The position numbers were made by a program, and so were the translations under genes. From Anadara kagoshimensis (lineage: Eukaryota; Mollusca; Bivalvia; Arcoida; Arcidae), in the NCBI GenBank assembly GCA_021292105.1, contig CM037861.1, positions 28,358,545 to 28,422,544 of the forward strand: a DNA stretch of 64,000 nt, read 5' to 3'. The stretch's first letter is position 1. Each line of letters opens with the position of its first letter. The notes beneath the pieces were generated by a model. The model searched no databases, had not been told where the DNA came from, and was given only the letters and a program-made list of their open reading frames with translations. Shown one piece after another: positions 9,911 through 63,544 of this stretch.

Positions 9911-11466
9911 CTATATCTCGGCAGGTTACGGCAGCTGCTACATATCTCTCGGCAGGTTACGGCAGCTGCTACATATCTCTCGGCAGGTTACGGCAGCTGC
10001 TACATATCTCTCGGCAGGTTACGACAGCTGCTACATATCTCTCGGCAGGTTACGGCAGCTGCTACATATCTCTCGGCAGGTTACGGCAGCTGCTACATAT
10101 CTCTCGGCAGGTTACGGCAGCTGCTACATATCTCTCGGCAGGTTACGGCAGCTGCTACATATCTCTCGGCAATTAACGGCAGCTGCTACATATATCTCGG
10201 CAGGTTACGGCAGCTGCTACATATCTCGCGGCAGGTTACTACAGCTGCTACATATCTCTCGGCAGGTTACTACAGCTGCTACATATCTCTCGGCAATTAA
10301 CGGCAACTGCTGCATATATCTCGGCAGGTTACGGCAGCTGCTACATATCTCTCGGCAGGTTACTAAAGCTGCTACATATCTCTCGGCAGGTTACTACAGC
10401 TGCTACATATCTCTCGGCAGGTTTAGGCAGCTGCTACATATCTCTCGGCAATTAACGGCAGCTGCTACATATCGCTCGGCAATTAACGGCAGCTGCTACA
10501 TATCGCTCGGCAATTAAGGCAGCTGCTACATATCTATCGGCAATTAACGGCAGCTGCTACATATCTCTTTACAATTAACGGCAGCTGCTACATATCTCTC
10601 GGCAATTAACGGCAGCTGCTACATATCGCTCGGCAATTAATGGCAGCTGCTACATATCTCTCGGCAATTTACGGCAGCTGCTACATATCTCTCGGCAATT
10701 TACGGCAGCTGCTACATATCTCTCGGCAATTAACGGCAGCTGCTACATATCTCTCAGCAATTAACGACAGCTGCTACATATCTCTCGACAATTTACGGCA
10801 GCTGCTACATATCTCTCGGCAGGTTTCGGCAGCTGCTACATATCTCTCGGCAGGTTTCGACAGCTGCTACATATTCTCGGCAATTTACGGCAGCTGCTAC
10901 ATATCTCTCGGCAATTAACGGCAGCTGCTACATATCTCTCGGCAGGTTACGACAACTGCTTCATATCTCCCGGCAGGCTTCGACAGCTGCTACATATCTC
11001 TCGGCAGGTTACGGCAGCTGCTACATATCTCTCGGCAGGTTACGGCAGCTGCTACATATATCTCGGCAGCTTTACGGCAGCTGCTACATATCTCTCGGCA
11101 GGTTACGGCAGCTGCTACATATCTCTCGGTAGGTTTCGGCAGCTGCGCATACTACATATATCTCGGCAGGTTTCGGCAGCTGCTACATCTATATCTCTCG
11201 ACAGGTTACGGCAGCTGCTACATATCTCTCGGCAGGTTTCGACAGCTGCTACATATCTCTCGGCAGGTTTCGGCAGCTGCTACATATATCTCGGCAGGTT
11301 TCGGCAGCTGCTACATCTATATCTCTCGACAGGTTACGGCAGCAGCTACATATCTCTCGGCAGGTTTCGACAGCTGCTACATGTCTCTCGGCAGGTTCCG
11401 GCAGCTGCTACATATATATCTCTCGGCAGGTTACGGCAGCTGCTACATATCTTTCGGCAGGTTTCG
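9911..11466. repeat. 31-bp minisatellite, about 50 copies, inverted relative to the 32-bp array
   Basis: Unit contains GGCAGCTGCTACATATCTCT then CGGCAGGTTAC or CGGCAATTAAC. Its reverse complement aligns with the 32-bp unit of 7041-8945, sharing GGCAGCTGCT and TCTCTCGG. Preceded at 9835 by a family-E end with TTAACACTTAGCTAACGA. Confidence 0.93.
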
Positions 11467-12856: not shown

Positions 12857-12890
12857 ATGTATTGGATACATTTAATAGGATCGTTAATAG
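12857..12890 (+). CDS. Exon 1: start codon and first half of signal peptide
   Basis: ATG in good context (AAACC before it), encoding MYWIHLIGSLI, then one base of a split codon and donor G|GTAAGTATAC. It joins exon 2 in phase 1 to give a continuous hydrophobic run. Out-of-frame ATGs at 12835 and 12844 lie just upstream and open a frame that would stop inside exon 2, so either transcription starts below them or they act as upstream ORFs. This start is chosen because it is the only one I found that supplies a signal peptide in phase with CRD1. Confidence 0.6.
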
Positions 12891-15800
12891 GTAAGTATAC
12901 ACGTTAAATGGGGATGTGGTGAAAATCGAGTCGAGTTTAAAATCTTTTTCGTTAACTGAGTGTTAAACCTTCGACTGGGCTGTATCCCTGATGTTGTCCA
13001 ATCCAATGGAAACCGAAACAGAACACGAGTGACGAACGTAAGGACTGGAAACTTTGTGGGCCACGAGTTTTGAAATAATCAGAAATGCATTTTGGACTGG
13101 AACAAAACCTGGGGCCTCAATCAACCCCCCCCCCCTTTTTTTTTTTTACATGGACCTGGATTAACATTGCCAGTTCAGCAATCGATATAAAATAAAGTCC
13201 AGCCCCGTGATCCGATTCTCTCCCATAACTATGTACTGTACATTATGTTCGCCATATTTGTTTTTAAAGTGATGGGGAGTCGATTTTTACAATTGAGTCA
13301 AATGTATTTTACATAAGCTCTACACTACTGTAGGAACCATTCTGTTTGTGACAGTGAAGTACTCTTCATATCCATAGAAAATTAAATCAATTTGAATAAA
13401 GATTGATATTTTTCTCTTACTTGTCCCTAGTCGTAACAGGAAATTTGTATGCGTATCCGCGATTAGCCCAAAATATATCTGCATGTAGGATAAAACGTTG
13501 GGGCTATGGGGATTAAACATGTTGAAAAATCAGGCAAATGACGGATTCTGTTGCGCAGATGACGTAAAACGTCACCAAGGAATCAAGGACATCACTTCCG
13601 GTGTAAACTTCACCATTTTCGCCATGAAGAGTATTTCACTGTTACAAATTGAGTGGTTCACTTGAAGTAGTACTGGCGGTGTACCTGTATCTCGTCTCGT
13701 CATGCACGGGTTACACAAAAAGAAACGTAGTATAAACATTTGTAGCAAATTGGTTCCAATAGTAGGTAGTACTCTCCATTAGTTCGGGATGACCCGGTTT
13801 CGACCCCCGATCCGACCTTACATGTTCTCCTTCCTGTTGCACATGTACTTGAAATCAATACAAACAAACCGGCCCATATACAAATCATACCCCCCACCCC
13901 AAAAAATAATAAAAAAAAATAAAATAAAATAAAACAATTGAATGGCAAATTTAGCTAAACACGTGAACTTCAACCAGGAAAGTGAGTCCTGGTGTTCCGG
14001 AACTATGGGAAATGCAATCTACACCAACCAGTAATAAAAAGAAATGTGTAACTATTGTGATTGATATACCCAGGATAAATTTGGATACAATCACATCATG
14101 CCTATCAAAAATATTGTGATGATGGCCACAATTAAGATAATTTCATTTTTATATTTACAAATGCGTGTAATATGTAATTTTGAAATATTCAAATATTGAT
14201 CTAGTTCACCTAAAAATTCACTACATGAAAACAGCCACAACATATATACACGTATAGTGCGTCAAGTTTGACCTGGCCGTTTGACCTTTAATTTTAATAT
14301 TAGATTGTGCTAATTGACTGTGTCATTATTTTCAATTACCATTCATACTCTGCACACAATATTATTGTCATATACCATTTTTTAAATTTAATCATAAAAT
14401 ACATTTTAAAAATGGTATATATTTTAATGTATTATTTTTTAATAAATTCAAAAAATGGAATATGACATTACTATCATCTACATGTATCCTTATACATGTA
14501 TATAAACTTTACATAGCCACTATTGTGACTAAATTACCCAATTAATTGATAGGTCTGCTTGAACATTCAATGAAAGGTCAAACGGCCAGCTCATGTTGAC
14601 GCACTATGCTATTGGATCTATAGTGTAGTATAAACCAATAGATAAAAGCGTTATAAATAGAAATATAGTTGAAAACGTTCAGTAAAATAAGGATGAAAAA
14701 AGAAAAATACATACACTGTATATCTAAGAGAATTGGTTAGACAGCAATTTACGCATAGGGTCATCTTATTTGGTATATAAGTACAGTTTTATGTCTCCCT
14801 TAGGGGTTTTGGAAGACTGTTTGAATGACGTTAATCCATACGTATTTGTTTGAGTTGCTTTATTACCTTTACCTTAATGCTGTCCTTGCCAGAAGGCGCA
14901 AAAGACCAGACTGCTATCTTTCAATTTTTGTCTGTCCTTCGCTGCTGTTTTCAAGCTAGTCCATCCAGCGGCGTTTCTTTCTATTTTTGTCTGTCCTTCG
15001 CTGCTGCTTTGGCAGTGTTACAGGCAGTACATCCAGCGGCGTTTCTTTCCTTTTCTGATTGAGTTGCTGACCACTCCTAATTCGTAATTCATTGTAGTAA
15101 TAATAGCTAAAATATGTAACATTTAGGGCCAAGACTTAGTGTAGGAGCCATAGGCTCCTGGGTCTCAGCTGTTTAAAGTCTGGCGCCTTAATTTTCGTTA
15201 TTTGACCATGTCGTATATAATTTAGAACGCTTTGCAGTAATAACTACTAATAGAGTGATTCCATTTTCATACATTGAAGGTCTTATTAATGAGTGACACT
15301 CATTGACTTAGTGATAGGCTTTCTAGCTCATCAGAGTCAAAGACTTTAGAATGTCCTTTTCCTATTCTGTAATATTGCCAGTTGCTTAAGTTCGACATTT
15401 TTCGAGTTGAATTGCATCCAAAATAATGGGGTGGTTGAAAATAAAAAAAAATATTTCAGTCAAATTTCAAACCATAAAATAAATAAATAAATTAAAACAC
15501 TCAAGTAAAATTTTATTTTTAAGCAGCTTTCCAAAAACAACGCTGGTGCATTATTGACATTAGATGCCTTTAACATACAAACACGTTATAATGATTTTTT
15601 TTCTTTCGTTTCAGTTATGGCTATGTTCGCCGTTGAAACTACTTCGATACGTAAGTATACACGGAAGTACATTATACGGATTCGCCACTGTGCCACGTAC
15701 CCCTAATACCCCTACAGTGATTGGGAAGGACATGTTTTCAACATGGGCCATTTTTTAGTTGTTCGTAGATTTTCAGAACAGTAATGGGCTTATATAAGTG

Positions 15801-18800: not shown

Positions 18801-21800
18801 TGTTAAAAGTTAAAAGAAGGACGCTAGTTGAAGAAGAACTATAGATTCTATTGTTTGCATGATCATTGATAAGTCTTTTTGTTTTATTTTGGTAATTATG
18901 TTCTAGAAAATGGTGAAAATGTTCCGAAACTCTCACATACAGTTTAAATCCAACATGACCCGCGTTTTCCTTCATATGAAACACGAACAGAGCCAGCCGT
19001 GGTATAATATAAGTTATACAGGGCTTTGACAGGTTTCACGGCCATGTGCTGTCAAAGATTTCTGTACCCCGGGACCCACAGAGTCAGCCGTGGTATAAAA
19101 TAAGTTATACAGGGCTTTGGCAGGTTTCATGGCCCTATATGCCATGTCAGAGATAATGTAACACGGATATGCACAGTCACCTTGTGATATATTCTTCCGA
19201 ATGCAAACTGCGGCCTGTGTTTTATTCGACGATATATATACAACTGGTTAATATTTACAGTAACACCCATTTTCCGTCTATGACATTAACGTAAATTTGC
19301 TTTGTACGTCTATGAAAATGTTTGTCTGACTGAATGGAAGTAGGCGGGTTCACTTATCATCGCTGACGTCATCCCTTTATTGAGATACGGTAGGATGTAC
19401 TAAAGCCGACGGGGGAAGTAAATTATTAACAAAAATGAAATACAGTGATAGCAGATAAGATATAAAAATAATTTGTAAATATAAGAAATACATTGTGGCC
19501 AAAAAAAAAAAAAAAGAGATTTGTATGTTATTGATCTAATCGGACTAAATTGTATGTTTTTGTTTTCAGAAGAATGCCAGTCTTTAGATAAAACTTTAGA
19601 CATGTGCAGGATGATGGGATATGACTACAAAACCACGTTCCCAAACTCTTTCGGAGCAAACAACCTCACAGCTGCACGTTACAACATGATGCAAATACAT
19701 ATGGATTTAGTAGGTCAGGCACAATGCCATGGGCCAGAATCACTAGACATCAGTCTACTCATGTGCTTACTGGTATTTCCCATTTGTGAAGATGGGGGAG
19801 TACAGGTACCACCGTGCCAATCATTTTGTAATGGTCAGTATAATCATGGTCCTCTTTACAAGTGAAAGAGGAATGGCGGGTTTGATGATATTTTATCCTA
19901 AATTGGCTGTTTTGGTTTTTGAAAAATAAAAGTCTTTATATTCTTGCAATTTAATGAAAAATGTTAATGTTTGTTCTCTGCTATTCAAGGAAAAACAATT
20001 TAACGTAGAACGAAGTGCTTGTTTTTCATAAAACCCGTTCCAATTATAAATTGTAATATCTTCAGGTGTTTCAAAATACATCGTAACGTCATACAGTGAT
20101 ACGTCTATGTAAAATCGCCTATCAAACCCGCCATACCTGTTTCTGTATCTTGATAGAGAACATTTATATATTAAAGGGGTGTTTTTGACTAATTGACCAC
20201 GAATGCTGGTCAAGGCGGGAAATATTGCTAGGATAGGAAAGGACTGAAATACATCTTATTAGTTGGTTTTTAAAACTAGTTGTCACCTTAATGTCCTCGA
20301 CACCATTGTCCATAATCCGTTTTTCCCGACAAACAATATTCATGAAAACTAATCAATTATTGAGAATTCTGAATGCAGTGTGATAACATTGGTTATAGGT
20401 ATCACATTCCATTATTGAATGATTGAATTAAAAAATGGTATGATGATATAGAATCAAATCATTTGGTATACAGTCAAACCTGTCTATAAAGGCCACCCAA
20501 GGAAACTAGTAAAAGTGGTCTTTATGGGCAGGAGGTCTTTATATACAAGTCCATATAATATGAATAAAGAACCGTTGGGATACAATTCTGTTGGCCTTTA
20601 TAAGCAGATGACCCTTATATAGAGGTGATTTTTGAGAAAAGTTGACTGTATAATGGAGAATTTGTACCAAAGAAATAAAATCCGTGGTCATAGTAAACAT
20701 TTAAGTTGATTGAATAATAATATCCGAAAATAATTTCACCATTTAATGACTTCCGTAATGGTATTTTGCATTGCATAATATTGTTATTCACCGTTCATCC
20801 AGACACTTTTTGTCCAGAGTAATTCTCCAAATCAATGAAACACTTTTTTTTTTTTACAAAACTTAGTGTAAAGCTGAACTTAGAAATTGGATGTGCATAT
20901 CGGTAGGCTTAGTTTGCTTTCTTATTTTGCTAAGAATTATAGCCCTTTGAAAATAAAAAATAATTAAAAATCACAAAAACTACTTATTGGCGGGTAATCC
21001 TGATTCATTGAATTTGTTTATTTCAGATGTAACATCTAATTGTAATATCACCAACATTGCCGGTCAAGATCCTTCATCGATATGTGGTTCATTACCGGAT
21101 TATCCACAGAAATGCTTTCCAAAAGGTTAGTAATTATATATCAAGATAGATAATAGAAATACATTTACTTCAGCTATTTCAAGGGCCTCACTAAAGCAAA
21201 TTTCAGCCGAATTTCAGCCCCATTTCCAATGCAAAAAATATGTTTTCCCCAATGGATAATGGCATTATTTCCAATTTATTTGTATGTTGTGTTTGTTTAC
21301 AAAATATAAGTATATATGCATTCCAAATTGATTTCTTAACCTTCATTTAATTTTCATTTTTAACCCTGCAGCTTTTTCGAAATTGAGATTATCTGGAAAA
21401 GATGGCTAAAATAAACGCTTAATTTCAACAGATTATACTAGTTTCAATTGCAACCCTAAAACTTTTTCGATATTAGGAAAAGTTCATGAATGGACTTGTT
21501 ATATTATTTACATCTTACTCAGTGAAAGGTACAAGTTTTTCGATGAAGAAAACATAGTTGATTTCTGTGCATCTTACAAGAAAATGTTTATACTTGAAAT
21601 AATGACGTACTTGCTAATTTTCATTTGTAATCTTACAGATTTTTTTATATTATGTATTATATCTAGAAAGTAAACTTATGCAAAATTCATTTCGATAGAG
21701 TAAATATTGTTAATTTTTATTCATCTTACTGGAAAGTGTTTATCAAAAACAAAATACTAATTCATGTCCGAATCACTATCCAGAAGCAAGCTTGCTTAAA

Positions 21801-24296: not shown

Positions 24297-24337
<41 letters not shown>

Positions 24338-57300: not shown

Positions 57301-60300
57301 GGAAGTATATCTTACGTTTTGGGGAATTTTTAGACAATAGTATTTTCTATAAAATATCTCATTTCAGAGTCTTTGACTTGTGATGAAATAGACTCGTTAA
57401 AACCTGTGTTATCCTCGCTGTCAGTTGATAAGCTGTCATCAATTGAAGTGGTGGAATTTATGACTTGTCTGGAAACCCTAGGGAGTGTCAGCGATTGGAA
57501 TGCTGACCAATTGTCTACACTGGCGTCTAAAGCAAAACATGTATGTATCAATAATTTGTTAAAAAACGATATGTATTTAATAGAAAAGTAAAAAGTGATT
57601 ATATTTCTCCAAGTAGATATAATTTCGTAACATGTTTGATAAATTCCTAAATAAATAGATCTGAATGAAGCTTAATAATACATGTATATTTGACATGTTT
57701 CGGCTCAGTCGACTGATACCAATCCTGATGGCGGTAAAACAACTAACGAAACATGTCGACCAGATAATAAATACTACCATTAGGTTTCATCTAGCACTGA
57801 GATCTATTTGTTTAAAACTTTTAAGACAGTGTTTAAGAAAAACATTTTATATATTGATATTAAAATTGATATTTTGAACTGGCTTTATCCAAAAACTTAT
57901 TTTGGTTCTGGATTGTTTTATCTCGTTTTATTCATTACACACGCAGGTATAGCTAGCTAAACAGGAAGTACCTGGACTCACTTCCTTGGGGGGAAGTTTG
58001 CGTGTTTATACTGCTTAACCTAATTTCTCAGTTTCAAAGCTTGTACTTTGCTTATGGACTGTGATTCGGACATTGATTAGTATGTTTGTTTTTGATTTAA
58101 TAATTTAAGACTCTGTACATTACTGCTTTAAAAAGTTAAACACAATAGGCCACTTTTGGCTAAAAAGTTAGTCATCGGTTAAACGGTAGAAATTAATTAT
58201 CGTTCTACTAAGTTATAGCAGTTAAAACTTCTTTTTAACCTTGTACAACATATTGTAAGATTTGTAACGCATATAATTGGTTAAAAACATGCCTCAATGG
58301 TTTCCTTTTTGATAGATTCAATGAGAAAACATTACAAAAAAATCACAAAATAACATATTTGCCCAAATCAAATCAAACGCATATATAAAATATGCAAGAA
58401 ATCAACTTTAAATGACACAAAATGCTTATTAAAATGATGTCGACATGGCTTCAGCGAATTTGCAAAACTTTTATTTTCATTTATTATTTAATAATTAATT
58501 TCTGAATAATTATTATAGAACGATGCATTAGGAAGTATTTCAACATGGACAGAAGATGACATGATCATGGCTGGGTCAATCACAGCTGGATTGTCAGCAG
58601 AAGAAATAAGTCAACTGCAAATAGATTCTGAAGATATATTATTAGCAATGGGAAAATATGACTTATTCACTTCAGAACAGGTTATACTTAGATAAATATC
58701 ATATGTTTATGTCATTCATATGGTTTCAAAGGTTTTGAATTATTTAGCATATATTATCTAAAGATGAAAATGTTTAAAGGTGTGAGAGATACTGTCAGAC
58801 ATTAAGAGTAATGTTGATCAAGGTGTAGTAAAAACAAACCTATACTGTATAAAAAAAGAAAAGAAAAGAGGAGTCTAAAATGTGTGAAAAATGACATGAA
58901 AATGTAATATTTTATGTATTCATTTTAATTTAAAATTAACTATGAAAGGAGGAAAATCTGAGAAATAGTTTTCGAAAGTTGATAAAATGCTAAATATTTT
59001 TTATCAATACAGTTTGTTTTATTTATTAAAAATAATTAAGAAAATAAACACAACACGAATAATTACTTAAATTAAATTGTTTATGAAATCTATATAAAAG
59101 GTTTGTTTTTGTTAAAAAAATATTTTTCAAATCTTCAGAAATTTCCAAATTGGAATACTATTACGCCAATACAAACGCAAATACATTTAATTAATTGTGC
59201 TTTTGCCTAGCTTAACATTTTGACAATATGGAGGTCTTTTATCATTTTATATTTTGCTTGTTTAGCTGACTGCTGGTTTTGAACGATGGTTGTCCCTGTC
59301 AAAATCCAACGATATAGGTCAAGTTACAAGTGAAGAGCTATTAGCACTTGAAAACTTTGTTTGTGGAATAAGCAGCGGCAAAATTAATGGGATATCATCT
59401 GCAACAATCGTGTAAGTTTTTGTAACTAAAAATGGTGATAAATTCTTTGCAAAATCGGTCAATTTTGGTGTCCAATTTTCGCGTCTCTGAGGAAAAGCAT
59501 TGTTACATGGCAACGTCTTTTACCATTACATTTAATGCTATTCTATTTTTACAGCAATTCCCCAACAGCATATTATGACAATGTCTTTTGTATTGTCGTT
59601 ATTTGTTATTTAGTTTTACATCATTACATATCAATGTCTTTTACAATTACTGTTATTCAAATTTTACAGCTACCTTATAACAGAATTACTCGACAATGCA
59701 TTTTATAATTCCTGTTATATCATTGTTACTGTGATTTTTCAACAGCAATGAATAGCAATGACATTTTTAAGTAGTTATTCCATTTTTACAACGACTTTCG
59801 CACAAAATTACTTGACGATGTCTTTTATGATTACTGTTATTTCGTCGTTACGGCGATTTTTCATCAGCATTACATGACAATGTATTTTGTCATTGATGTG
59901 TTATTTCAATTTTACAGTGATTCTCTATCAGCATTTCGTGATCGATCTTCGTGTAACTCGGATCAAATGCAAGCTCTGGCCAATAAAGTCAAGGAAAGTT
60001 ATGGAACGAACACTGCAACATGGCAGCCATCGATAATTACAGATATGGGAGTGATCATTGGTAAAGACACGTTTCGTATCTCTTATTTTGAACTTTTTTC
60101 TATTTTGACACAATAGGCAATGAACATTGTCTTGATTTGAGAATTTAACCTCATACTATACTTAATGCTCTGTATCTCTAGCGGTTAGAATTGAAAACAC
60201 AATGTTCTTCAAGTAAGAATGAACATAAAATAATTTAAAGTCGAATTTTTGCATTGTAATTAAACGTCAGTGTCCGTTCTTTTAAAAACGTACAATTTTA

Positions 60301-63300
60301 TATGACTTGATCATTTTGATGATATATGTACATGCATATAATATGTACAGTCAAACACCACTTAAAAGGCTACCTAAGGGAACCAGTTAAATTAGCCTTT
60401 AAGGGCCAGTGGGCCTTATATACAGGTTCAAATTAGATGTGACCTTTAACATGTTTAAGCCAGCTTCGACTGTCAAGAACATTGTGTATTTTATGGTTTC
60501 TTCAGGTGGATTGGATACAACAAGTATATCATTATTCAACATAGACCAAATTGGAGAGATCGCACCAACTTCAATTGAGAACATGCCACCATCATCTTTT
60601 GTTGTGAGTATTATTAAAGATTGGCATATTTTACACAATTCAATAACAATTATGGCTAATTTCACCACCACTGTTTCGACTTAAAATCACCGACGGCATT
60701 GTTGTAAATGGATAGGAATTTGAATAAAGAAATGTATCATCTTATCATTAAAGATTTGTCCATCAAATGTTATGCACTACGAGGCACTACATTTTACATT
60801 AGTCTTCAATATATCTAATGTGTTCAATATTTCTGATAACACTTATTAAAAATTCATGAATTACATATAAACTTTTGAAGGATTAAAAACTAAAATCTGT
60901 AAAATAGTAGGTGATTCTATATTTCAAAATGATGATATTTATTTTTATTTTGTTGAGTTTTAACGTTTAAGCTAGAGCCAATTCTTGTTAGGTAGTTTAT
61001 GTTTTTGGTACTTGATGCTGCCGATAACGGGCAAAGCGGGATTATTCTACAAAACTGAATAGCGCCAACAACACTGCTAAACTTGTTGTGCTTTATCGGG
61101 TGCAAAAAAACGTGATGTAAATACGACACCTTAAAAGAATGGCGTAATGCAATTACAAAATTTTTTTTAGAAAAAATCTATCTAGTATGTTTTTCTTGTA
61201 AGCGACTTTCTGAGAAAATAACATCAGAAAATTTCTGTCGTTTGTCACGAGTAAAACAACAATTATTTTAGTTATATATTAGTTATTAACAATGACATCA
61301 TGTGCAATATTTATCTTGTTCAATATTAATAAAATATAAATTAAGTATGTGTGTGTGTGTGATTTATGAAAACTAACATTGTTTGTAATTTTAATCGTTA
61401 TCATGATTCTTACATTATAAGTTATAATGTCCCATAGTTCCATGTTCCTTTCACACAATTTGATTACACACGTGACGGGTGTAGCTAGCTAAACAGGAGG
61501 TGCTTACCCTTCCGGAGCACCCGGCCTCACTTCCCTGGTGGAAGTTCACGTGTCTAACCTAACTTGTCAGTTCCAAAGTTTTTACTTTGCTCCTGGATTG
61601 TGATTCGGAAATGGATAAGTATGTTTGTTTTTGATTATACAGGGCTTTGGCAGGTTACACGGTCCCATGTACCCCGTCAAAGATTTATGTACCCTGAGCC
61701 GCAGGCGAAGGGTACATTCATATTTGACAGGGTACATGGGACCGTGTAACCTGCCAAAGCCCTGTATAACGTTTTTGTCACCCTTCAAAGCGTTACCAGT
61801 TGGATCTTTTTAACTTCCACTTCGTATTTTCTGTGACTTGCGTGCGTTGTCGCCAAGTTTGTTTACCGTAACTAGACGTCAGAGATGTACGAGTTACTTC
61901 CCTTTTACCGCTAAACATCGCGTGCTCTCATGTACCCTGGCAGTTTTCCGAACATCGTTCCATGTACCCCGGCAAGTTAACCAATCGCTATGCGAGAAAT
62001 TTCTTTGAAGGATGACAAAAAATAAGTACATTTCACACATCTGTTTTAATGAAAATTGATATATGTTTAGATGGGTAAATTTAAAATAAATTCGATGAAA
62101 TGGGGTTTGCCACTGTACCATGTAATACCCTGTAATGTTTTTGTGGAACTTGTATATCCATTTTAAATAGAATCGTATCAATTTCTGTTTTCCCGTAAAA
62201 GCGATGTTATTCCGGGAATTTGCAGCGTAAACGTTTTGGAAAACGCCCCATACAAACACTAAAAGTGTTGATAAGATGGCACAGCGGCTGTCCCCTATAC
62301 CTTTACATATGTTGTTGTCTAAAATGTCACATATTGTTTATTATTCAGGGTTTCACACCAGAGCAGTTAGCTATCTTTAGTATAAATCAGTTACGTGCAG
62401 TCACCGAACAGCAATACAACGCTCTGAGTGATAATCAACGGAATGTTATGAAGACGACTCTTGGTTCCGATGTTCCGGTAGTCAGCTTTGGAACAAAACT
62501 CGGTAGGTAATACCCTTCCAGCACCACTTATTAAAGGTACTTTACTGTAGGTTTGTGGCCGCAAATGATTCTGATGGTTCATGATGTCCCGGTTGTCATG
62601 TTTTAGTTTCCCCTATACACTACAGGCATCGATGAAAGGTACTTTACTGTAGTTTTAGGATAATGCAATTTTCCTATGTTTGTTGTCCTAGTCATCAAGT
62701 ATGAAACTAAACTCTGTAAGTATCTCCTACGTTGCTGGCATCGCTGAAAGGCACTTTACTGTTCCTGCAACTGTGCTTGTGTCAGTGATTTTTTTTTTCG
62801 ATGTCCGACGCACGAAGTTAGCTTTGGAACAAAACTTGGTAAGTAGTACCCTACGCTACTGGCATCGTTGAAAAGTACTTACTGTATATTCGACTATGTG
62901 GCAGTCAATTTTTCCCATAACCGACATCCGATGTCCCGTTAGTCGGTTTTGAAACAAAACTTGGCGAGTAGTACCCTACATTACTAACATCTGTGGAAGG
63001 TCCTTTACTGCATGTGCTGATATTTGTGGAAACTAAGTAAGTCAATTTTGTAGCAAATCTAGTGAATTTAAATGAATGTAATAGAAGCCCACGTTAGTAA
63101 TACCTTTCCGGGTTTTTTCCTAAATGCTCACTGATTTTTGTTAGTTATATAATAAACATGATCAATTTTATGTTCTACTCCACTGGACATTGACGAATAT
63201 ACGGGTCGACCTTGATCTTTGTAAATTAAAGCATTAACAGAACTTTTTTGTTTCTATTTTAACCTTACAAAATGTCGATTGGAAATTTGTTATACAATAG

Positions 63301-63544
63301 CGTCCTAACCATTCCAAATGTATTGCCACAACAATACTAGTATGTATGGAATCCAAATGGGTTTGCTTTATTAGCTTTCGTGGTTTTACACTTACGATAG
63401 ATTTGTTGTCATTTACAAACAATTGATGTATGCCTTTTATGATTTTGTTATTTTAATGATATATTTATTTATTTCGTTGTAGATCCTACGAAGACGCTGC
63501 TGTCGGTGTTGTTACTTCTGTCTTTTAGTCTTCTATTAGGATGA
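12857..63544 (+). CDS. Secreted/GPI-anchored protein with two Frizzled-like CRDs and mesothelin/stereocilin-like repeats (31 exons)
   Basis: Assembled by hand from 31 exons listed separately; joined length 4,500 nt, 1,499 residues plus stop, with no in-frame stop and matching phase at all 30 introns. Domain order: signal peptide (about 1-22), Frizzled-like CRD1 with ten Cys (26-144), Gly-rich linker (145-153), CRD2 with eight Cys (155-316), helical leucine-rich repeats with recurring patterns such as LPxxxI and TPEQL (about 317-1475), furin-type RKRR (1182-1185), hydrophobic GPI-type tail (1485-1499). Known: Frizzled CRDs bind Wnts and lipids. Mesothelin, otoancorin and stereocilin are extracellular, partly GPI-anchored proteins with predicted superhelical repeats, and mesothelin is cut by furin. 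Inferred: an extracellular adhesion or ligand-binding protein at the cell surface whose N-terminal 1,185 residues may be released. Least certain parts are exons 1-2 and possible alternative exons. I know no named orthologue. Confidence 0.85.
13950..14010 (+). mobile_element. Family B fragment
   Basis: TAAACACGTGAACTTCAACCAGG and AAGTGAG, a truncated copy in intron 1. Confidence 0.5.
14254..14607. mobile_element. Inverted-repeat element in intron 1
   Basis: ATAGTGCGTCAA with TGGCCGTTTGACCTTT at the left is mirrored by AAGGTCAAACGGCCA and TTGACGCACTAT at the right. AT-rich interior. A 354-bp non-autonomous element. Confidence 0.7.
14922..15052 (+). repeat. Local tandem duplication
   Basis: TTTTTGTCTGTCCTTCGCTGCTG and CATCCAGCGGCGTTTCTTTC each occur twice about 60-70 bp apart, making a 70-codon open frame that I take as accidental. 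Confidence 0.6.
15615..15650 (+). CDS. Exon 2: second half of signal peptide (36 nt)
   Basis: Strong acceptor (T-rich tract, TTTCAG) and donor C|GTAAGTATAC. Read in phase 1 it gives V-MAMFAVETTSI-Q, completing a hydrophobic core over residues 3-17. Cleavage is plausible after Ala17 or around Ser22, a few residues before the first CRD cysteine. The donor's ten bases are identical to those of exon 1. Confidence 0.65.
16231..16450. mobile_element. Inverted-repeat element (ACGCCCACAATG family)
   Basis: TCGCCGGGCACGCCCACAATG at the left against TAGTGGGCGTGCGTGGCCGG at the right. Internal TTTTCATTCTTTTTGCGTGT is shared, inverted, with the larger copy at 54270-54680. Confidence 0.65.
16712..16803 (-). 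repeat. tRNA-like sequence (Leu/Ser-type pseudogene or SINE head)
   Basis: On the - strand CCGAATGGTCTAAAGAGCG resembles a D-arm and TGGGTTCGAATCCCA is a perfect T-arm/B-box. The 5' and 3' ends (TGTCCGA / TCGGACC) pair at six of seven positions. Length near 85-90 suggests a long variable arm, but I could not fold a clean anticodon stem. Confidence 0.45.
17150..17324. repeat. TTTA-rich low-complexity tract
   Basis: Imperfect (TTTA)n with TTTAAAAATA interruptions. Confidence 0.8.
17325..17480. mobile_element. Family E element containing one minisatellite unit
   Basis: Ends ACAGTACAGACCTGCCGAAAG and TCGACAGGTCTG...GTACTGT. In the middle TCGACAGCTGCTATCGTCTATCTTTCGGC is a single copy of the unit amplified at 7-11.5 kb. 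About 156 bp, no ORF. Confidence 0.75.
17495..17624. repeat. Foldback (long hairpin), arms about 55 bp
   Basis: TATGGACTTTTTAGTG through CACTAAAAAGTCCATA with a ~20-bp loop (CGAGGCGACAGCCGAGG). Arms nearly identical, suggesting recent origin or gene conversion. Confidence 0.85.
18489..18645 (+). repeat. Interspersed repeat (GAACTTGAAAAGTCATGGAAT type)
   Basis: Repeated internal phrases 'AAAAGTCATGGAATT' and 'GAAAAATCACATGAATTTTG', a pattern I recognise from marine invertebrate genomes. No coding signal. Confidence 0.4.
18991..19150 (+). repeat. 91-bp direct duplication
   Basis: AGCCGTGGTATAA...AAGTTATACAGGGCTTTG occurs at 18995 and again at 19086. The same ACAGGGCTTTGGCAGGTT core forms the arms of the palindrome at 61636-61768. 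Confidence 0.7.
19570..19833 (+). CDS. Exon 3: Frizzled-like CRD1, main part
   Basis: Residues 24-112. Shows Cys1-Cys7 of the Frizzled CRD: EC, DMC, then the hallmark GYDYKTTFPN, QAQC, LMC, FPIC, PPC and SFC. Acceptor TTTGTTTTCAG, donor G|GTCAGT. Both borders phase 1. A possible N-glycosylation site (NLT) is present. The match to the family pattern is clear by eye. Ligand preference cannot be read from sequence. Confidence 0.93.
20469..20650 (+). mobile_element. Family D element, complete, intron 3
   Basis: TACAGTCAAACCTGTCTATAA at the left and AGTTGACTGTA at the right, AT-rich middle, 182 bp. Confidence 0.75.
21027..21125 (+). CDS. Exon 4: end of CRD1
   Basis: Residues 113-145. Supplies the last three CRD cysteines (SNC, SIC, QKC), completing ten, so all five canonical disulfides can form. 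Acceptor TTTCAG, donor G|GTTAGT. Phase 1 on both sides. Confidence 0.9.
21752..22405. mobile_element. Two family B copies in inverted orientation
   Basis: 21752-21871 is + (GTGAACTTTCACCAGGGAAGTG), 22255-22405 is - (CTTCCCTGGTGGAAGTTCACG). AT-rich spacer between. Could be a single larger inverted element or two insertions. Confidence 0.6.
23410..23433 (+). CDS. Exon 5: 24-nt linker micro-exon
   Basis: Encodes a Gly-rich linker (GYGGQESG) between the two CRDs. Acceptor AATTGCAG, donor G|GTACGT. Phase 1 on both sides, so skipping it keeps the frame and would only shorten the linker. Confidence 0.75.
23478..23965. mobile_element. Imperfect palindromic element, intron 5
   Basis: TACTCCCCGCCTTCGAAGAAAG at the left mirrors the CCTTCAGAG-type end near 23950, and AATTCTCCAAAACTATGAAGCACTA mirrors TAGTGCTTCATAGGTTTGGAGAATT. 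A fragment of the same family sits at 20800-20870. Confidence 0.6.
24299..24337 (+). repeat. Poly-T tract
   Basis: An uninterrupted run of about 37-39 T upstream of exon 6. Confidence 0.9.
24436..24822 (+). CDS. Exon 6: Frizzled-like CRD2 with low-complexity insertion
   Basis: Residues 154-282. Starts PCETVKFPMC and has the FPN motif (TSFPNW), then FFSCSLFFPKC and MPMCRSFC near the end. Between these lies a stretch rich in Gln, Ser, His, Pro and Gly, with GPGPGPG and MPEMPEM (about residues 190-250). The third CRD cysteine is absent, replaced by this insertion. Potential N-glycosylation at NYT and NMS. Donor G|GTAAGT. A 37-39-base poly-T tract lies about 100 bases before the acceptor. Confidence 0.9.
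25165..25285 (+). mobile_element. Family B fragment
   Basis: CAAGTGAACTTCCACCAGG and AAAGTGAGACCGG, 5' part only. Confidence 0.55.
25788..26002. mobile_element. TTCGCGAG inverted-repeat element
   Basis: CCACTGTTATTTCGCGAGAG at the left and CTCGCGAAAAATAAGTGATCCACAG at the right, with internal CGCGAATTTAAA copies. Locally CpG-rich within AT-rich intron 6. Confidence 0.6.
26712..26830. repeat. Inverted repeat, arms about 25 bp
   Basis: AAGAAATGACATTTCTGCTCATGGT against ACCATGAGCAGAAATGTTATTTCTT with a GC-richer loop. Confidence 0.75.
27010..27114 (+). CDS. Exon 7: end of CRD2
   Basis: Residues 283-317. Contains the last two CRD cysteines (EQLC, HNC). The position of Cys8, present in CRD1 as SNC, is non-Cys here. 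Acceptor CTGTTTAG, donor A|GTAAGT. Phase 1 on both sides. Confidence 0.88.
27330..27510 (+). mobile_element. Family C copy (diverged), intron 7
   Basis: TTATACCAGTTTCAATTTCACAG, then CACTAGGCGGCC and ATACTTTGCATGG. Followed by a (GA)8 microsatellite at 27508-27524. Confidence 0.6.
27770..28110 (+). repeat. Two tandem copies of a tRNA-derived SINE-like unit
   Basis: TGTCGAATTTC..AGTTGGCGAC recurs 174 bp apart (27773 and 27947). The second copy has GTGGCTTAGTATTTAGTGCG and GGATTCAACCCC, spaced like tRNA A and B boxes. Confidence 0.5.
28210..28404 (+). CDS. Exon 8: linker and first helical repeat
   Basis: Residues 318-382, cysteine-free and helix-rich (charged/hydrophobic heptad-like spacing, LSTLPITLKASFEYLV near the end). 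Acceptor TTTTAG, donor A|GTAAGT. This is the last of eight successive phase-1 junctions. It marks the change from CRDs to the mesothelin-like region. Confidence 0.85.
28585..28935 (-). pseudogene. 3' end of a LINE-type retrotransposon ORF
   Basis: The - strand frame 28732-28935 (67 codons) contains KDEFHFLLVCQSY, then FNTLFSSNS and WNHRTELLTY. This resembles the Cys/His C-terminal tail of non-LTR reverse transcriptase proteins in invertebrates. Nothing of the catalytic domain remains. The fragment sits antisense in the large intron 8. Confidence 0.5.
28936..30254. other. Intron 8, no feature recognised
   Basis: AT-rich. A 78-codon + frame at 29618 has no splice sites or similarity I recognise. 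Confidence 0.4.
30260..30690 (+). mobile_element. Family D element interrupted by a family B copy
   Basis: Left half AGTCCAACCTGCTTTAAAGG to GTTCTTGATTCAT, right half TATTTGAACCTGTCCATAAAG to GACAGGTTTGACTGTA. Between them, about 30321-30605, is a full + family B element. Uninterrupted relatives at 9050 and 45940 read straight through this point. Confidence 0.7.
30691..32010. other. Intron 8, nothing recognised
   Basis: AT-rich sequence without repeats visible by eye or coding signal. Confidence 0.4.
32020..32175 (+). mobile_element. Family C copy (diverged)
   Basis: TTATACAGTTTTAACTTTTCAG, GACGACCGTTTCTGAATACC and TTTTTCAAGATGTTGAAA mark the family. 3' end missing. Confidence 0.55.
32440..32775 (+). 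repeat. Three tandem copies of a ~115-bp AT-rich unit
   Basis: ATAAACATACTGATTTATTTG starts at about 32458 (variant), 32572 and 32687. Each unit ends in GATAGTAATATTTAGCTA. Confidence 0.8.
33080..34845 (+). mobile_element. Family A element with eight tandem 145-bp units
   Basis: Starts TTAGCTCACCTGACCGAAGG with a hairpin to TCATGTGAGCTTA, then a GTGCGT microsatellite (33130-33178), and ends AGGCCCATGGGCCTCTTG. From about 33640 to 34770 a 145-bp unit repeats eight times. TGATGTATAG recurs at exact 145-base steps from 33716, and the final copy is diverged (TGATGTAAAG). Units carry AAGGTCAAGGTCACAGATG. No ORF. Confidence 0.85.
34901..35119. mobile_element. Family E element, intron 8
   Basis: TGCAGACCTTTCGAAAGTTTAACAC at the left, GTAAAACTTTCAATAGGTCTGTACTGT at the right, with GCTAACAAGG and TTCGTTAGCTTA inside. 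219 bp. Confidence 0.7.
35671..35843 (+). CDS. Exon 9: mesothelin-like repeat
   Basis: Residues 383-439. Contains the repeat pattern TLPTSIIELVV at its end, as in the LP-x3-I steps of this superfamily. Acceptor TTTTTTATAG, donor AAG|GTAATG. Phase 1 in, 0 out. Follows a 7.3-kb intron. Confidence 0.85.
35980..36140 (-). mobile_element. Family B copy, intron 9
   Basis: GGAGCACCCGGTCTCAATTCCC and AAAGTTCACGTGTTTA. Diverged. Confidence 0.6.
37131..37245. repeat. Foldback, arms about 48 bp
   Basis: CCCGTGGTATATCGTCGAAT through ATTCGACGCTATATCACGGG, loop around TATATCAGTATA. Confidence 0.85.
37481..38065 (+). pseudogene. Penelope-like reverse transcriptase fragment, catalytically broken
   Basis: 194-codon frame in intron 9. 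Recognisable reverse transcriptase blocks: KERLKEII, the palm block GIPMGTNCAPLLADLFLYSY, and RYIDGVLSL followed by ASYLDL. The usual Y-x-D-D pair reads YIDG, so the second catalytic Asp is lost. The frame lacks the N-terminal half and stops soon after ASYLDL, and no endonuclease domain is seen. I place it with Penelope-like or related elements from the IPMGTNCAPLLAD style. A related non-LTR type is possible. Sense orientation to the host gene. Confidence 0.75.
38673..38692 (+). repeat. (TA)n microsatellite
   Basis: GTATATATATATATATAT just upstream of the exon 10 acceptor. Confidence 0.85.
38709..38870 (+). CDS. Exon 10: mesothelin-like repeat
   Basis: Residues 440-493, 54 codons, phase 0-0. 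Reads PSVVHEIGDGLTDEQIEQFC then a basic helix and FIMQHTDE. Acceptor TGTTTTAG, donor GAG|GTAAAT. Two cysteines in the exon could pair with neighbouring repeats. Confidence 0.85.
39344..39504 (+). CDS. Exon 11: mesothelin-like repeat
   Basis: Residues 494-547. Helical, with TWTLDILKTAPKAIKVEDI then the start of the next step (VSQFSNI). Acceptor TTCTTTTCAG, donor AT|GTAAGT. Phase 0 in, 2 out. Confidence 0.87.
39770..39899 (-). mobile_element. Family B remnant next to exon 12
   Basis: CCGGTCTTACTTCCCTG, TTTCACGTGTTTAACTAA and TTTGTTTTTGATTTA. Its end supplies part of the pyrimidine-rich stretch before exon 12. Confidence 0.55.
39917..40103 (+). CDS. Exon 12: mesothelin-like repeat
   Basis: Residues 547-609. 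Contains SLGSVINKIPKKVRRAAMKK and ends TKDIRAVPNAV, the same step pattern as exon 11. Acceptor TTGTTGTCAG, donor GTT|GTAAGT. Phase 2 in, 0 out. The acceptor lies 17 bases after a degraded family-B repeat copy. Confidence 0.88.
40624..40733 (+). other. Exon-like block with in-frame stop (possible alternative terminal or decayed exon)
   Basis: Follows AATACAG and, read in phase 0 after exon 12, gives 36 repeat-like residues beginning VLTNQLLMLTLEALNNR and ending NENTD-stop. The spacing of hydrophobic residues resembles exon 13. No GT donor in the block keeps phase with exon 13 (the only GT, at 40697, would shift frame). If used it would end the protein near residue 645, without furin site or GPI tail. 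No AATAAA was found just downstream. Confidence 0.4.
40841..40980 (+). CDS. Exon 13: mesothelin-like repeat
   Basis: Residues 610-656. Steps IVDTLKSIPKDMIKNSRL and ETLPPANVTD. Acceptor TTTTCACAG, donor GA|GTAAGT. Phase 0 in, 2 out. Joins exon 12 directly if the 40624 block is skipped. Confidence 0.87.
41470..41578 (+). CDS. Exon 14: mesothelin-like repeat
   Basis: Residues 656-692. Reads MLPYLVKNKKIFKKLTPTQL then a second helix with ENLETLKEVPLKKSE. Acceptor TTTTTAG, donor GAG|GTAATC. Phase 2 in, 0 out. Confidence 0.86.
42118..42276 (+). CDS. Exon 15: mesothelin-like repeat
   Basis: Residues 693-745, 53 codons, phase 0-0. Two steps: AVGNLVEALKPKEFQEIPVE and LIKMVPNLKNMHLSKGQ. Acceptor TTTTAAAG is weaker than its neighbours. 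Donor CAG|GTAAGA. Confidence 0.85.
42355..42689. repeat. Large imperfect foldback, intron 15
   Basis: ATATGGCGGGAAACAGTATC at the left, GATACTGTTTCCCGCCAAATG at the right. The centre is a smaller palindrome (GATCTTATAATTTTAATC / TTAAATTATAAGATC), and TTACGTCAC...GGTGTTATC pairs lie between. Arms diverged in the middle. Confidence 0.75.
42960..43185 (+). mobile_element. Family B copy, intron 15
   Basis: CAAGCATACTTATCAATGTCCG to AAAGGAGCATGGAACTATC with GTGAGGCCGGGTGCTCCGG. Near full length. Confidence 0.7.
44035..44076 (+). CDS. Exon 16: 42-nt repeat micro-exon
   Basis: Encodes VKAIRKKMGNSFPR, residues 746-759. Acceptor TAATTTTAG, donor AGG|GTACGT, phase 0-0, so it can be skipped in frame. 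Compare IRKKMGVGKK in exon 24, the same step. Confidence 0.72.
44077..45525. other. Intron 16, nothing recognised
   Basis: AT-rich. A short - strand frame at 44703-44888 has no support. Confidence 0.4.
45526..45690 (+). CDS. Exon 17: mesothelin-like repeat
   Basis: Residues 760-814, 55 codons, phase 0-0. Shows MTPENIEEYGSLLSAFDGKE and LSNLPDSVITSKLSTLKDI, clear family-type steps. Acceptor CATTTTCAG, donor AAG|GTATAG. Confidence 0.88.
45820..46891. mobile_element. 1.07-kb element with ~48-bp terminal inverted repeats, intron 17
   Basis: TATATAAAGACACGTTTGTA...GTCGCATTTAATGTAAATAAC at the left is mirrored at 46845-46891 by GTTATTTACATTAAATGCGAC...TACAAACGTATCTTTATATA. Inside are a family D copy (45871-46046) and a 71-bp tandem duplication (46372-46515). 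No ORF remains. Confidence 0.75.
46915..47145 (-). mobile_element. Family C copy, near full length
   Basis: CTCAAAAACTAAGGTATACTCC to CCGAAACGGCCGTCTAGTGC then CTGGTATAATATG. A second, + oriented, shorter copy follows at 47370-47490. Confidence 0.75.
47659..47811 (+). CDS. Exon 18: mesothelin-like repeat
   Basis: Residues 815-865, phase 0-0. Reads TFKQLGKYAATSVPRKWLEQ then an acidic Gly/Asp/Leu stretch. Acceptor ATATTTAG, donor CAG|GTAAAT. Confidence 0.83.
48418..48627 (+). CDS. Exon 19: mesothelin-like region
   Basis: Residues 866-935, 70 codons, phase 0-0. Gly-rich middle (GTMGVLGPNLTDFGNLILG) with an NLT and an NYT site, followed by an Ala-rich helix. Acceptor CATTTCAG, donor AAG|GTAACT. 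A family-B repeat copy begins about 40 bases after the donor. Confidence 0.86.
48668..48960 (+). mobile_element. Family B copy, intron 19
   Basis: Full-length type: TCAAAAATAAACACACTGAT to GTGATGACGGCCATAAAAC. Confidence 0.75.
49598..49716 (+). CDS. Exon 20: helical repeat
   Basis: Residues 936-975. Amphipathic helices with KMVRNVLNLTGNV and WSEISRLLQFF. Acceptor AAACAACAG has a weak pyrimidine tract immediately before it, although a very T/C-rich run lies at 49511-49575. Donor GA|GTAAGT. Phase 0 in, 2 out. Confidence 0.8.
50004..50215 (+). mobile_element. Family C copy, intron 20
   Basis: ATTATACCAGTTTTAATTTTACAG, CACTAGACGGCCGTTTCG, TTTACCAAATTAAGC and GCATGAGGGAGCATATACC. Confidence 0.75.
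50465..51165 (+). repeat. Three tandem copies of a ~240-bp unit, intron 20
   Basis: CTGTCTGCTTGAACTTTATTTG at 50615 and 50852 and, diverged, 51093. Each unit has ACGGTTGGTATATGAAACAAC and AAGTCAGT(C/T)ACCTCAAAAA. The third copy is the most diverged at its end. Confidence 0.85.
51600..51905. mobile_element. Family B fragment followed by inverted family C copy
   Basis: 51610-51695 has GCTAGCTACTCCCGTCACCTG and AAGGAACATGGAACTAT (family B, +). 51700-51905 has AAAACTAAGGAATACTCCCTC to AAACTGGTATAATATG (family C, -). Confidence 0.7.
52098..52239 (+). CDS. Exon 21: helical repeat
   Basis: Residues 975-1022. Reads DWKNDFPKIHQNDKEHIC and LTLPEVQKITDIAFECL. Acceptor after a T-rich run, AAAAAG|C, chosen because it alone restores phase 2. 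A second AG seven bases on would break the frame. Donor CTG|GTAAGT. Confidence 0.82.
52808..52938. repeat. Foldback, arms about 52 bp, intron 21
   Basis: GAGTTAAGTTTTCTTTTTG...AAGAATTGGACATTGCACAC is mirrored by GTGTGCAAAATGTCCAATTC...TTAACTT, with ATTCGCTATGCGAAT at the tip. Confidence 0.85.
53034..53124. repeat. Compound palindrome with two TGACGTCA centres
   Basis: 53034-53071 is a perfect 38-bp palindrome centred on TGACGTCA (53049-53056). Next comes a second palindrome on AGTTTAAACAATA / TATTGTTTAAACT, then the first palindrome's half again with TGACGTCA at 53116-53123. Confidence 0.9.
53682..53887 (+). CDS. Exon 22: mesothelin-like repeat
   Basis: Residues 1023-1091. Contains GLTKEEIQHLSADAIMMSLP followed by DLEKCPFFD, a pattern typical of stereocilin/otoancorin repeats. 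Two cysteines may pair. Acceptor TTATTTTCAG, donor TC|GTAAGT. Phase 0 in, 2 out. Confidence 0.88.
54270..54680. mobile_element. Larger copy of the 16231-16450 element family, intron 22
   Basis: GACCACGCCCACGATGTTCC at the left, GACCGGCGACACGCCAATTGC at the right. TTACACGCAAAAAGAATGAAAAC occurs twice (54396 and 54529), so the interior is itself duplicated. Ends only ~55 bases before exon 23. Confidence 0.7.
54736..54823 (+). CDS. Exon 23: helical repeat
   Basis: Residues 1091-1120. Short exon reading GIFTDSDLLGLLGSFVIHLT. Acceptor TACATTTTAG, donor AAG|GTACAG. Phase 2 in, 0 out. Confidence 0.84.
55351..55552 (+). CDS. Exon 24: repeat ending in a furin-type RKRR site
   Basis: Residues 1121-1188. 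A long basic helix (IRKKMGVGKKVAEIIKEH) is followed by SSRKRRST. RKRR lies at 55534-55545, residues 1182-1185, and fits the R-X-K/R-R furin consensus. Mesothelin precursor is cut by furin at the equivalent boundary, which leaves a GPI-anchored part of about 300 residues. The part after this site here is of the same size. Acceptor TTGTTTTAG, donor G|GTATAC. Phase 0 in, 1 out. Confidence 0.88.
55665..55890 (+). mobile_element. Family C copy, intron 24
   Basis: ATATCGGTTTTAATTTTACAG, CACTAGACGGCCGTTTCGG to GCATGAGGGAGTATGTCTTAG. A short remnant of the same family is at 54835-54915 and a diverged one at 57185-57340. Confidence 0.75.
56400..56695 (+). mobile_element. Family B copy, reference-quality
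   Basis: ATCAAAAACAAACATACTTATCC to GATGACGGCCATAAAACTTT. Nearly identical to the copy nested at 30321-30605, including GTGAGGCCGGGTGCTCCGGAAG. No ORF and no A/B boxes found, so I cannot say whether it is a SINE or a MITE. Confidence 0.8.
57368..57540 (+). CDS. Exon 25: start of mesothelin-like C-terminal part
   Basis: Residues 1188-1245. Reads SLTCDEIDSLKPVLSSLSVD and VVEFMTCLETLG then WNADQLSTL, matching the repeat style of mature mesothelin. Acceptor TCATTTCAG, donor CAT|GTATGT. Phase 1 in, 0 out. Confidence 0.9.
57933..58100 (-). mobile_element. Family B copy, intron 25
   Basis: ACACACGCAGGTATAGCTAGC to TAGTATGTTTGTTTTTGATTT. Diverged in the middle. Confidence 0.65.
58519..58680 (+). 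CDS. Exon 26: mesothelin-like repeat
   Basis: Residues 1246-1299, 54 codons, phase 0-0. Contains WTEDDMIMAGSITAGLSAEE and a following I-D-x-E-D-I-L helix. Acceptor TTATTATAG, donor CAG|GTTATA (weak at +4/+5). Confidence 0.87.
59266..59411 (+). CDS. Exon 27: mesothelin/stereocilin signature repeat
   Basis: Residues 1300-1348. TSEELLALENFVCGIS is close to the L-x-E-L-L-x-L-x-x-x-V-C-G-L signature seen across mesothelin, otoancorin and stereocilin, and is one of the best family markers here. Acceptor TTGTTTAG, donor GT|GTAAGT. Phase 0 in, 2 out. Confidence 0.92.
59515..59917 (+). repeat. Degenerate tandem copies of the exon 28 acceptor region
   Basis: Phrases like ATTTTTACAGCAATTCCCCAACAGCAT, AAATTTTACAGCTACC and TTTTTCATCAGCAT recur with GACAATGTCTTTT. 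They resemble the true border ATTTTACAG|TGATTCTCTATCAGCAT at 59918. Irregular period of about 60-130 bp. Confidence 0.65.
59918..60060 (+). CDS. Exon 28: mesothelin-like repeat
   Basis: Residues 1348-1396. SSCNSDQMQALANKVKES is the companion step to the previous exon's VCGIS, and the two cysteines are likely disulfide partners. Acceptor CAATTTTACAG, donor G|GTAAAG. Phase 2 in, 1 out. The 400 bases before it contain degenerate copies of its own acceptor. Confidence 0.9.
60350..60440 (+). mobile_element. Family D fragment
   Basis: ACAGTCAAACACCACTTAAAAGG and GGGCCTTATATACAGGTTC. Right end missing. Confidence 0.55.
60506..60603 (+). CDS. Exon 29: mesothelin-like repeat
   Basis: Residues 1396-1428. 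Reads IDQIGEIAPTSIENMPPSSF, a typical step. Acceptor TTTCTTCAG, donor GTT|GTGAGT. Phase 1 in, 0 out. Confidence 0.88.
61428..61635 (-). mobile_element. Family B copy, intron 29
   Basis: ATAGTTCCATGTTCCTTTCAC to AAGTATGTTTGTTTTTGATT. Well conserved. The palindrome at 61636 begins exactly where it ends. Confidence 0.75.
61636..61768. repeat. Foldback, arms about 50 bp (ACAGGGCTTTGGCAGG)
   Basis: TATACAGGGCTTTGGCAGG...GGTCCCATGTACCC is mirrored by GGGTACATGGGACC...CCTGCCAAAGCCCTGTATA. Same core as the 91-bp duplication at 18991-19150 and CATGTACCC(C/T)GGCA pieces at 61930-61975. Confidence 0.85.
62160..62275 (-). mobile_element. Family F remnant just before exon 30
   Basis: TTTTCCCGTAAAAGCGATG, TTATTCCGGGAATTTG and AACGTTTTGGAAAACGCC match the family core in reverse. 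Confidence 0.55.
62349..62502 (+). CDS. Exon 30: TPEQL repeat at the C-terminal end
   Basis: Residues 1429-1480. GFTPEQLAIFSINQLRAVTE and then YNALSDNQRNVM match the L-T-x-E-Q-L / A-L-x-x-x-Q rhythm found near the C-terminus of mesothelin-family proteins. Acceptor TTATTCAG, donor G|GTAGGT. Phase 0 in, 1 out. The donor region is repeated in the following intron. Confidence 0.9.
62503..63010 (+). repeat. Degenerate tandem copies of the exon 30 end and donor
   Basis: True border GCTTTGGAACAAAACTCG|GTAGGTAATACCC at 62503. Copies: about 62590-62620 (worn), AACTAAACTCT|GTAAGTATCTCC at 62716, GCTTTGGAACAAAACTTG|GTAAGTAGTACCC at 62839, and TTTTGAAACAAAACTTG|GCGAGTAGTACCC at 62964. Spacers share CATCG(A/C/T)TGAAAGG(T/C)ACTTTACTG. 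Period about 105-125 bp. Confidence 0.8.
63483..63544 (+). CDS. Exon 31: hydrophobic GPI-type tail and stop
   Basis: Residues 1480-1499 then TGA. DPTK is followed by a 15-residue Leu/Ser/Val-rich run ending at the C-terminus with no cytoplasmic tail, as in GPI-anchor signals. The attachment residue is probably a small one just upstream (Ser1474 or Gly1476). A single-pass anchor is less likely given the short length and absence of following basic residues. Acceptor TCGTTGTAG. Confidence 0.88.

Follow-up and report, generated by a model that had tools for sequence, protein, structure and literature searches.

A predicted gene joining two Frizzled-type CRDs to a stereocilin-like, putatively superhelical region with a GPI-type tail

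Thirty exons on the + strand of a 64 kb stretch of Anadara kagoshimensis DNA (hereafter the window, which is AT-rich and contains no N) quite probably encode a single protein of 1,456 residues, in which two Frizzled-type CRDs are followed by a stereocilin-like, putatively superhelical region and a hydrophobic tail of the GPI type. The Fz and the Stereocilin profiles of Pfam both score above their cut-offs, so that neither of the domains called in the first-pass annotation is left without an HMM hit. That annotation also knew of no described protein with both domains; in line with this, no protein pairing Fz CRDs with a mesothelin/stereocilin region is described among the matches listed from the open-access full-text literature, to which this statement is confined.

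The gene model and its controls

Splice-site and codon scores were combined by dynamic programming into a gene model, which was then cleaned manually (Table 1). It comprises 4,371 coding bases including the stop codon, has no internal stops, and all 29 of its exon joins are in phase, a property that is built into the procedure and in this sense agrees with the in-phase joining claimed earlier. The gene ends of the first-pass annotation, an ATG at 12857 and a stop codon ending at 63544, were recovered exactly upon rebuilding; its count of 31 exons and 1,499 residues gives way to 30 exons and 1,456 residues. The GC content at codon positions 1, 2 and 3 is 0.454, 0.356 and 0.331, respectively, as compared to 0.315 in the introns.

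Table 1. Coordinates of the gene model, its exons and the surrounding repeats, in positions of the window
Feature	Position	Strand	Remarks
Gene model	12857..63544	+	start codon to stop codon
Exon 1	12857..12890	+	start codon and beginning of signal peptide; stop codon in frame 12 bases before the ATG
Exon 2	15615..15650	+	remaining signal peptide, hydrophobic stretch; phase 1-1
Exon 3	19570..19833	+	CRD1 cysteines 1-7; Pfam Fz and Frizzled-8 match
Exon 4	21027..21125	+	CRD1 cysteines 8-10
Exon 5	24436..24822	+	CRD2 with long inserted loop, without C3
Exon 6	27010..27114	+	end of CRD2; His279 in place of C8
Exon 7	28210..28404	+	linker without family match; phase 1-1, modest coding score
Exon 8	35671..35843	+	after 7.3 kb intron; first phase 1-0 exon
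Exon 9	38709..38870	+	Cys pair 451/475
Exon 10	39344..39504	+	
Exon 11	39917..40103	+	
Exon 12	40934..40980	+	short
Exon 13	41470..41578	+	within Stereocilin match (residues 616-793)
Exon 14	42118..42276	+	within Stereocilin match
Exon 15	44035..44076	+	14 residues, within Stereocilin match
Exon 16	45526..45690	+	within Stereocilin match
Exon 17	47659..47811	+	contains end of Stereocilin match
Exon 18	48418..48627	+	low-scoring acceptor
Exon 19	49598..49716	+	less secure call
Exon 20	52098..52239	+	Cys pair 953/982
Exon 21	53682..53887	+	Cys pair 1007/1032
Exon 22	54736..54823	+	
Exon 23	55351..55506	+	
Exon 24	57334..57540	+	Cys pair 1149/1178; possible alternative acceptor at 57368, different phase
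Exon 25	58519..58680	+	low-scoring donor
Exon 26	59266..59411	+	Cys 1289
Exon 27	59918..60060	+	Cys 1317
Exon 28	60506..60603	+	start of HeliScrew4-like segment
Exon 29	62349..62502	+	remainder of HeliScrew4-like segment
Exon 30	63483..63544	+	hydrophobic GPI-type tail, stop codon
Upstream tandem arrays	3242-4767, 7055-8945, 9912-11463		periods 60, 32, 31
Dispersed repeat, about 280 bases	30322-30600, 42963-43241, 48670-48948, 56405-56683		intronic
Dispersed repeat, inverted copy	61459-61639		intronic
Tandem array	33640-34751		intron 7/8; 145-base unit, 7.7 copies
Reverse transcriptase remnant	37457-38065	+	intron 8/9
Copies of exon 29 end and donor	62470-63000		several, degenerate, downstream of exon 29

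For the score control, the codon and splice parameters were not trained on this gene, and only background codon frequencies were taken from the window. At an intron cost of -4.5, the best gene path over 12-64 kb scores 90.4 on the + strand and 32.9 on the reverse strand, as compared to 3.2-15.5 in 12 local dinucleotide shuffles; at a cost of -3.5, the respective values are 119.9, 49.8 and 7.3-27.3. Hence the coding signal of the + strand exceeds chance; the reverse strand, too, beats the shuffles at both costs. The untrained path reproduces final-model exons exactly in 18 of its 29 exons at the former cost and in 19 of 32 at the latter. When exons were picked blind to phase, 14 of the 28 coincided with model exons, 5 overlapped them with other ends and 9 overlapped none, 4 of these 9 lying in mapped repeats; all seven pairs of neighbouring model exons that were exactly recovered in this way are phase-compatible, a control that is partly circular, as it is the model that chooses the pairs counted. 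The comparisons with Rfam and for tRNA genes gave no hits. No relatives were found for the CRD1 exon in a viral contig collection (2 pattern matches) or for exon 24 in a genome contig collection (199 pattern matches); as these collections consist of viruses and prokaryotes, this says little about a gene of this kind.

The introns and the upstream region are rich in repeats. Copies of the dispersed repeat are 74-97% identical to the reference copy and, having good splice sites, look like short exons in phase. Early automatic models contained false exons derived from this source (near 30399, 48747 and 56482), from the tandem array at 33.6-34.8 kb and from a reverse-transcriptase fragment (37793-37984), all of which were removed by hand using the repeat map, together with comparable fragments at 28-44 kb. 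In 18 of the 29 introns we looked for additional phase-neutral exons, at least 40 bases long; four candidates emerged, none of which was accepted. The segments 48747-48797 and 56482-56532 were rejected as two copies of the dispersed repeat, 37793-37984 as a reverse-transcriptase piece, and 61643-61711 was omitted since it lies directly beside a repeat and no family pattern is visible in it. The reverse transcriptase remnant in intron 8/9 matches Pfam RVT_1 with 16.6 bits (cut-off 29.6), and its motif style is reminiscent, as we take it, of Penelope-like elements. Long open frames within the upstream tandem arrays look like by-products of the repeats. The degenerate copies of the end of exon 29 and its donor are possible alternative splice sites.

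The CRDs, the superhelix and the protein ends

The Pfam Fz profile (PF01392) matches the whole model with 68.4 bits (E 9.5e-19, cut-off 32.1), and CRD1 (47.8 bits) and CRD2 (41.3 bits) each pass separately, as expected from the two Fz-type CRDs noticed in the first pass; with part of its insertion deleted, CRD2 reaches 50 bits over profile positions 1-108 of 110. The closest solved structure is the Frizzled-8 CRD (E 3.1e-5). CRD1 contains ten cysteines (26, 36, 76, 89, 96, 106, 110, 117, 131, 141), which can be compared with the published ten-Cys pattern CnCnCX8CX6CnCX3CX6,7CnCnC (PMC6938638, in excerpt): the spacings C4-X6-C5, C6-X3-C7 and C7-X6-C8 are as published, and C3 and C4 are separated by X12 instead of X8. 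CRD2 has eight cysteines (147, 155, 251, 258, 268, 272, 295, 303) and lacks C3 and C8, the place of the latter, six residues past C7, being taken by a histidine. Given that the CRD disulphides are C1-C5, C2-C4, C3-C8, C6-C10 and C7-C9 (same excerpt), CRD2 has lost both halves of one bond, as would be expected for a real, evolving domain. The exon 5 part of CRD2 carries a long insertion, rich in His, Pro, Gly and Met, close to the place of the missing C3, conceivably a flexible loop or one that binds metal.

In both CRDs a phase-1 intron is located one residue past C7, and exons 3-6 are all of phase 1-1; this common intron place and phase suggest that the CRDs are a duplicated, shufflable two-exon module. 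The CRD1 and CRD2 exons share 31% identity. Among the Pfam matches to the model there is neither a seven-transmembrane Frizzled domain nor a netrin-like (NTR) domain as in sFRP, and hydropathy exceeds 1.3 (17-residue windows) only at 1-7, 78-87, 1053, 1127 and 1438-1440.

The second part of the protein is recognized by the Pfam Stereocilin profile (PF21058, cut-off 26.6), which gives 36.4 bits with the whole model, the best stretch being residues 616-793, and 38.4 bits with residues 309-1436 alone; the reversed superhelix sequence has no Stereocilin match. Since the match begins where exon 12 meets exon 13 and extends into exon 17, homology backs the joins of exons 13-17. When the region was divided into four segments, residues 309-567 were without any Pfam match (E up to 10), residues 568-826 gave 28.3 bits with Stereocilin, residues 827-1081 had no Stereocilin match in Pfam at E up to 10, and residues 1082-1456 reached 19.4 bits with Stereocilin, below the cut-off, and 19.7 bits with the Death effector domain profile (cut-off 35.9); residues 309-431 matched no NCBIfam family. 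No Pfam Mesothelin match was listed, either for the whole model and the superhelix (E up to 1) or for the four segments (E up to 10). Thus, of the mesothelin/stereocilin-like superhelix of the first-pass annotation, the stereocilin part stands and the mesothelin part finds no Pfam match, so that 'stereocilin-like' is the preferable name.

Self-comparison of the region, which is about 1,130 residues in length, reveals internal repeats, with a best E of 3.7e-6 where the best of 5 shuffles reaches 0.034, and near the C-terminus there is a segment resembling HeliScrew4 (9zem, E 4.8e-5). The region would form a curved helical solenoid, a superhelix of the ARM/HEAT type being characteristic of the stereocilin/mesothelin family. 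Its ten cysteines fall into five pairs with spacings of 24, 29, 25, 29 and 28 residues (Table 1; the last pair is 1289/1317). Among 200,000 random Cys placements, none kept all five spacings within 24-29 and four kept them within 20-33, both ranges having been chosen post hoc; the middle pairing could be drawn differently, since Cys 982 and Cys 1007 likewise lie 25 residues from each other. In mesothelin the disulphides C302/C326 and C442/C468 span 24 and 26 residues (PMC10035497, in excerpt).

The signal peptide is hydrophobic and split across exons 1 and 2. The protein closes with a hydrophobic tail, encoded by exon 30, that extends up to the final residue, in accordance with the GPI-type tail proposed earlier. 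A hydrophobic tail reaching the stop codon is the pattern of a GPI signal, and the protein is predicted to be GPI-anchored on the cell surface. The model contains 14 N-glycosylation sequons and, in its 1,456 residues, no furin-type RxxR motif.

One gene or two

The compatible phases and the location of the secretion and anchor signals at opposite ends argue for a single gene. Two adjoining genes, the first (exons 1-6) for a small secreted protein with two CRDs and the second for a stereocilin-like protein whose first exon has been missed, appear quite unlikely: the phases of exons 6, 7 and 8 are compatible (the phase 1-1 of exon 7 being no test of that exon itself), the model gives the CRD part no anchor and provides no separate secretion signal for the superhelix, and no phase-1 signal-peptide-like first exon of at least 12 residues is present in 27115-35670, a weak null, as this filter would miss the model's own 11-codon exon 1. 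What such a pair of genes has in its favor is the long intron between exons 7 and 8, a CRD-superhelix junction (exons 6-8) that is crossed by no homology match, and the presence between the two parts of 27 poly(A)-signal-like hexamers (in 27114-35671) and of possible phase-0 starts, namely three signal-peptide-like ATG frames in 37481-37984 that lie inside the reverse transcriptase remnant. Reading through past exon 6 adds four residues before a stop, which, together with the hexamers, makes a short CRD-only transcript possible. The weak or tiny exons 7, 12, 15, 18, 19 and 25 and the repeats that mimic exons might even suggest a degenerate pseudogene or a model joined by chance, but with a frame open across 4,371 bases, HMM matches that span joins, paired cysteines and scores well beyond those of the shuffles, such an explanation is hardly credible.

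Possible function and relatives

The Fz and Stereocilin matches, the cysteine patterns, the shared CRD introns, the repeats, the hydrophobic ends and the sequons together suggest, with about an even chance of being right, a secreted CRD protein, tethered by GPI and raised on a stereocilin-type stalk, that would capture ligands carrying a lipid (Wnts, for example) or attach matrix; the binding of Wnts or lipids, and adhesion, would be its presumed activities. The stereocilin-like solenoid can be envisaged as a stalk or rod that would hold the CRDs away from the membrane and would also, like mesothelin, present a surface at the membrane to which proteins or glycans could bind; such a surface has been suggested for the stereocilin/mesothelin family (PMC2628672). 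CRD1 might capture a hydrophobic ligand or one that carries a lipid, a Wnt being the likeliest; by analogy with RECK and Wnt7, this ligand would be presented to receptors or held back. Fz-like CRDs often bind hydrophobic molecules, and the CRD-like lobes of glypicans are described as showing no groove (PMC3809587, in excerpt). CRD2 is short of one disulphide and has gained a long loop; its partner has probably changed. The gene could have arisen by shuffling, in which a CRD module of two phase 1-1 exons, already duplicated, came to lie before a stereocilin-type gene via a phase-1 intron.

It is possible, if on the unlikely side, that the product is a single matrix-attachment or adhesion protein whose rod anchors cells to the apical extracellular matrix, with the CRDs serving as non-Wnt protein- or glycan-binding heads. 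For stereocilin and otoancorin, a part in fastening hair cells and epithelia to the tectorial membrane has been suggested, and members of their family have been proposed to act as lectins (PMC2628672); a transcript named stereocilin appears among the cell adhesion genes of mussel larvae (PMC8696127, in excerpt), so that the family name is already in use for bivalves; and for most non-receptor Fz CRDs the relevance of Wnt is stated to be unknown (PMC6747125, in excerpt). CRD1, however, retains the full Fz cysteine set, and its best solved match is Frizzled-8. More doubtful is the possibility of a new class of surface protein, in which the rod of stereocilin type that attaches matrix would at the same time be a receptor capturing Wnts or sterols, with the tasks split between CRD1 and CRD2 and the CRD2 loop making the latter, for example, metal- or matrix-dependent; if so, a signal would be read or stored where the apical matrix, the shell matrix or cilia meet the cell.

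The GPI-tethered CRD protein with a stalk can be compared with several known systems. It resembles the stereocilin/otoancorin/mesothelin family, members of which are called GPI-anchored (PMC10035497, in excerpt), in the Stereocilin profile match, the mesothelin-like Cys spacing, the signal peptide and the GPI-type tail, and differs from it in having two N-terminal Fz CRDs, in lacking a Pfam Mesothelin match and, as regards mesothelin, whose precursor is furin-cleaved, in lacking RxxR. With the Frizzled-type CRD proteins (Frizzleds, sFRPs, corin, MFRP, COL18A1, ROR, MuSK) it shares the Fz profile, the ten-Cys CRD1 and the Frizzled-8 match, as well as, with corin, the presence of two CRDs per protein (PMC6747125, in excerpt). 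Unlike in these proteins, CRD2 has lost a disulphide pair and acquired a long insertion, and none of their other domains is found among the Pfam matches. As for RECK, the Pfam FZ_RECK profile remains below its cut-off here (17.7 versus 27 bits), and we know of no stereocilin-like rod in that protein. The likeness consists in the GPI anchor, which is predicted here, and in a domain that Pfam names Frizzled-like; RECK is GPI-anchored, binds Wnt7 and is reported to keep it monomeric (PMC12842694, in excerpt). Glypicans are GPI-anchored as well, and their N-terminal lobe is distantly CRD-related (PMC3809587, in excerpt). No glypican family is found among the Pfam matches to the model.

Unusual domain combinations are common in invertebrates. 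Mesothelin is a cancer antigen and stereocilin a hearing protein implicated in deafness, and the origins and ligands of both are incompletely understood. A CRD-fused relative would show a member of the mesothelin/stereocilin family with a binding head and would prompt one to test whether the biology of this family includes Wnt or lipid ligands; the protein would also be an added candidate for a GPI-anchored Wnt co-receptor, alongside RECK and the glypicans.
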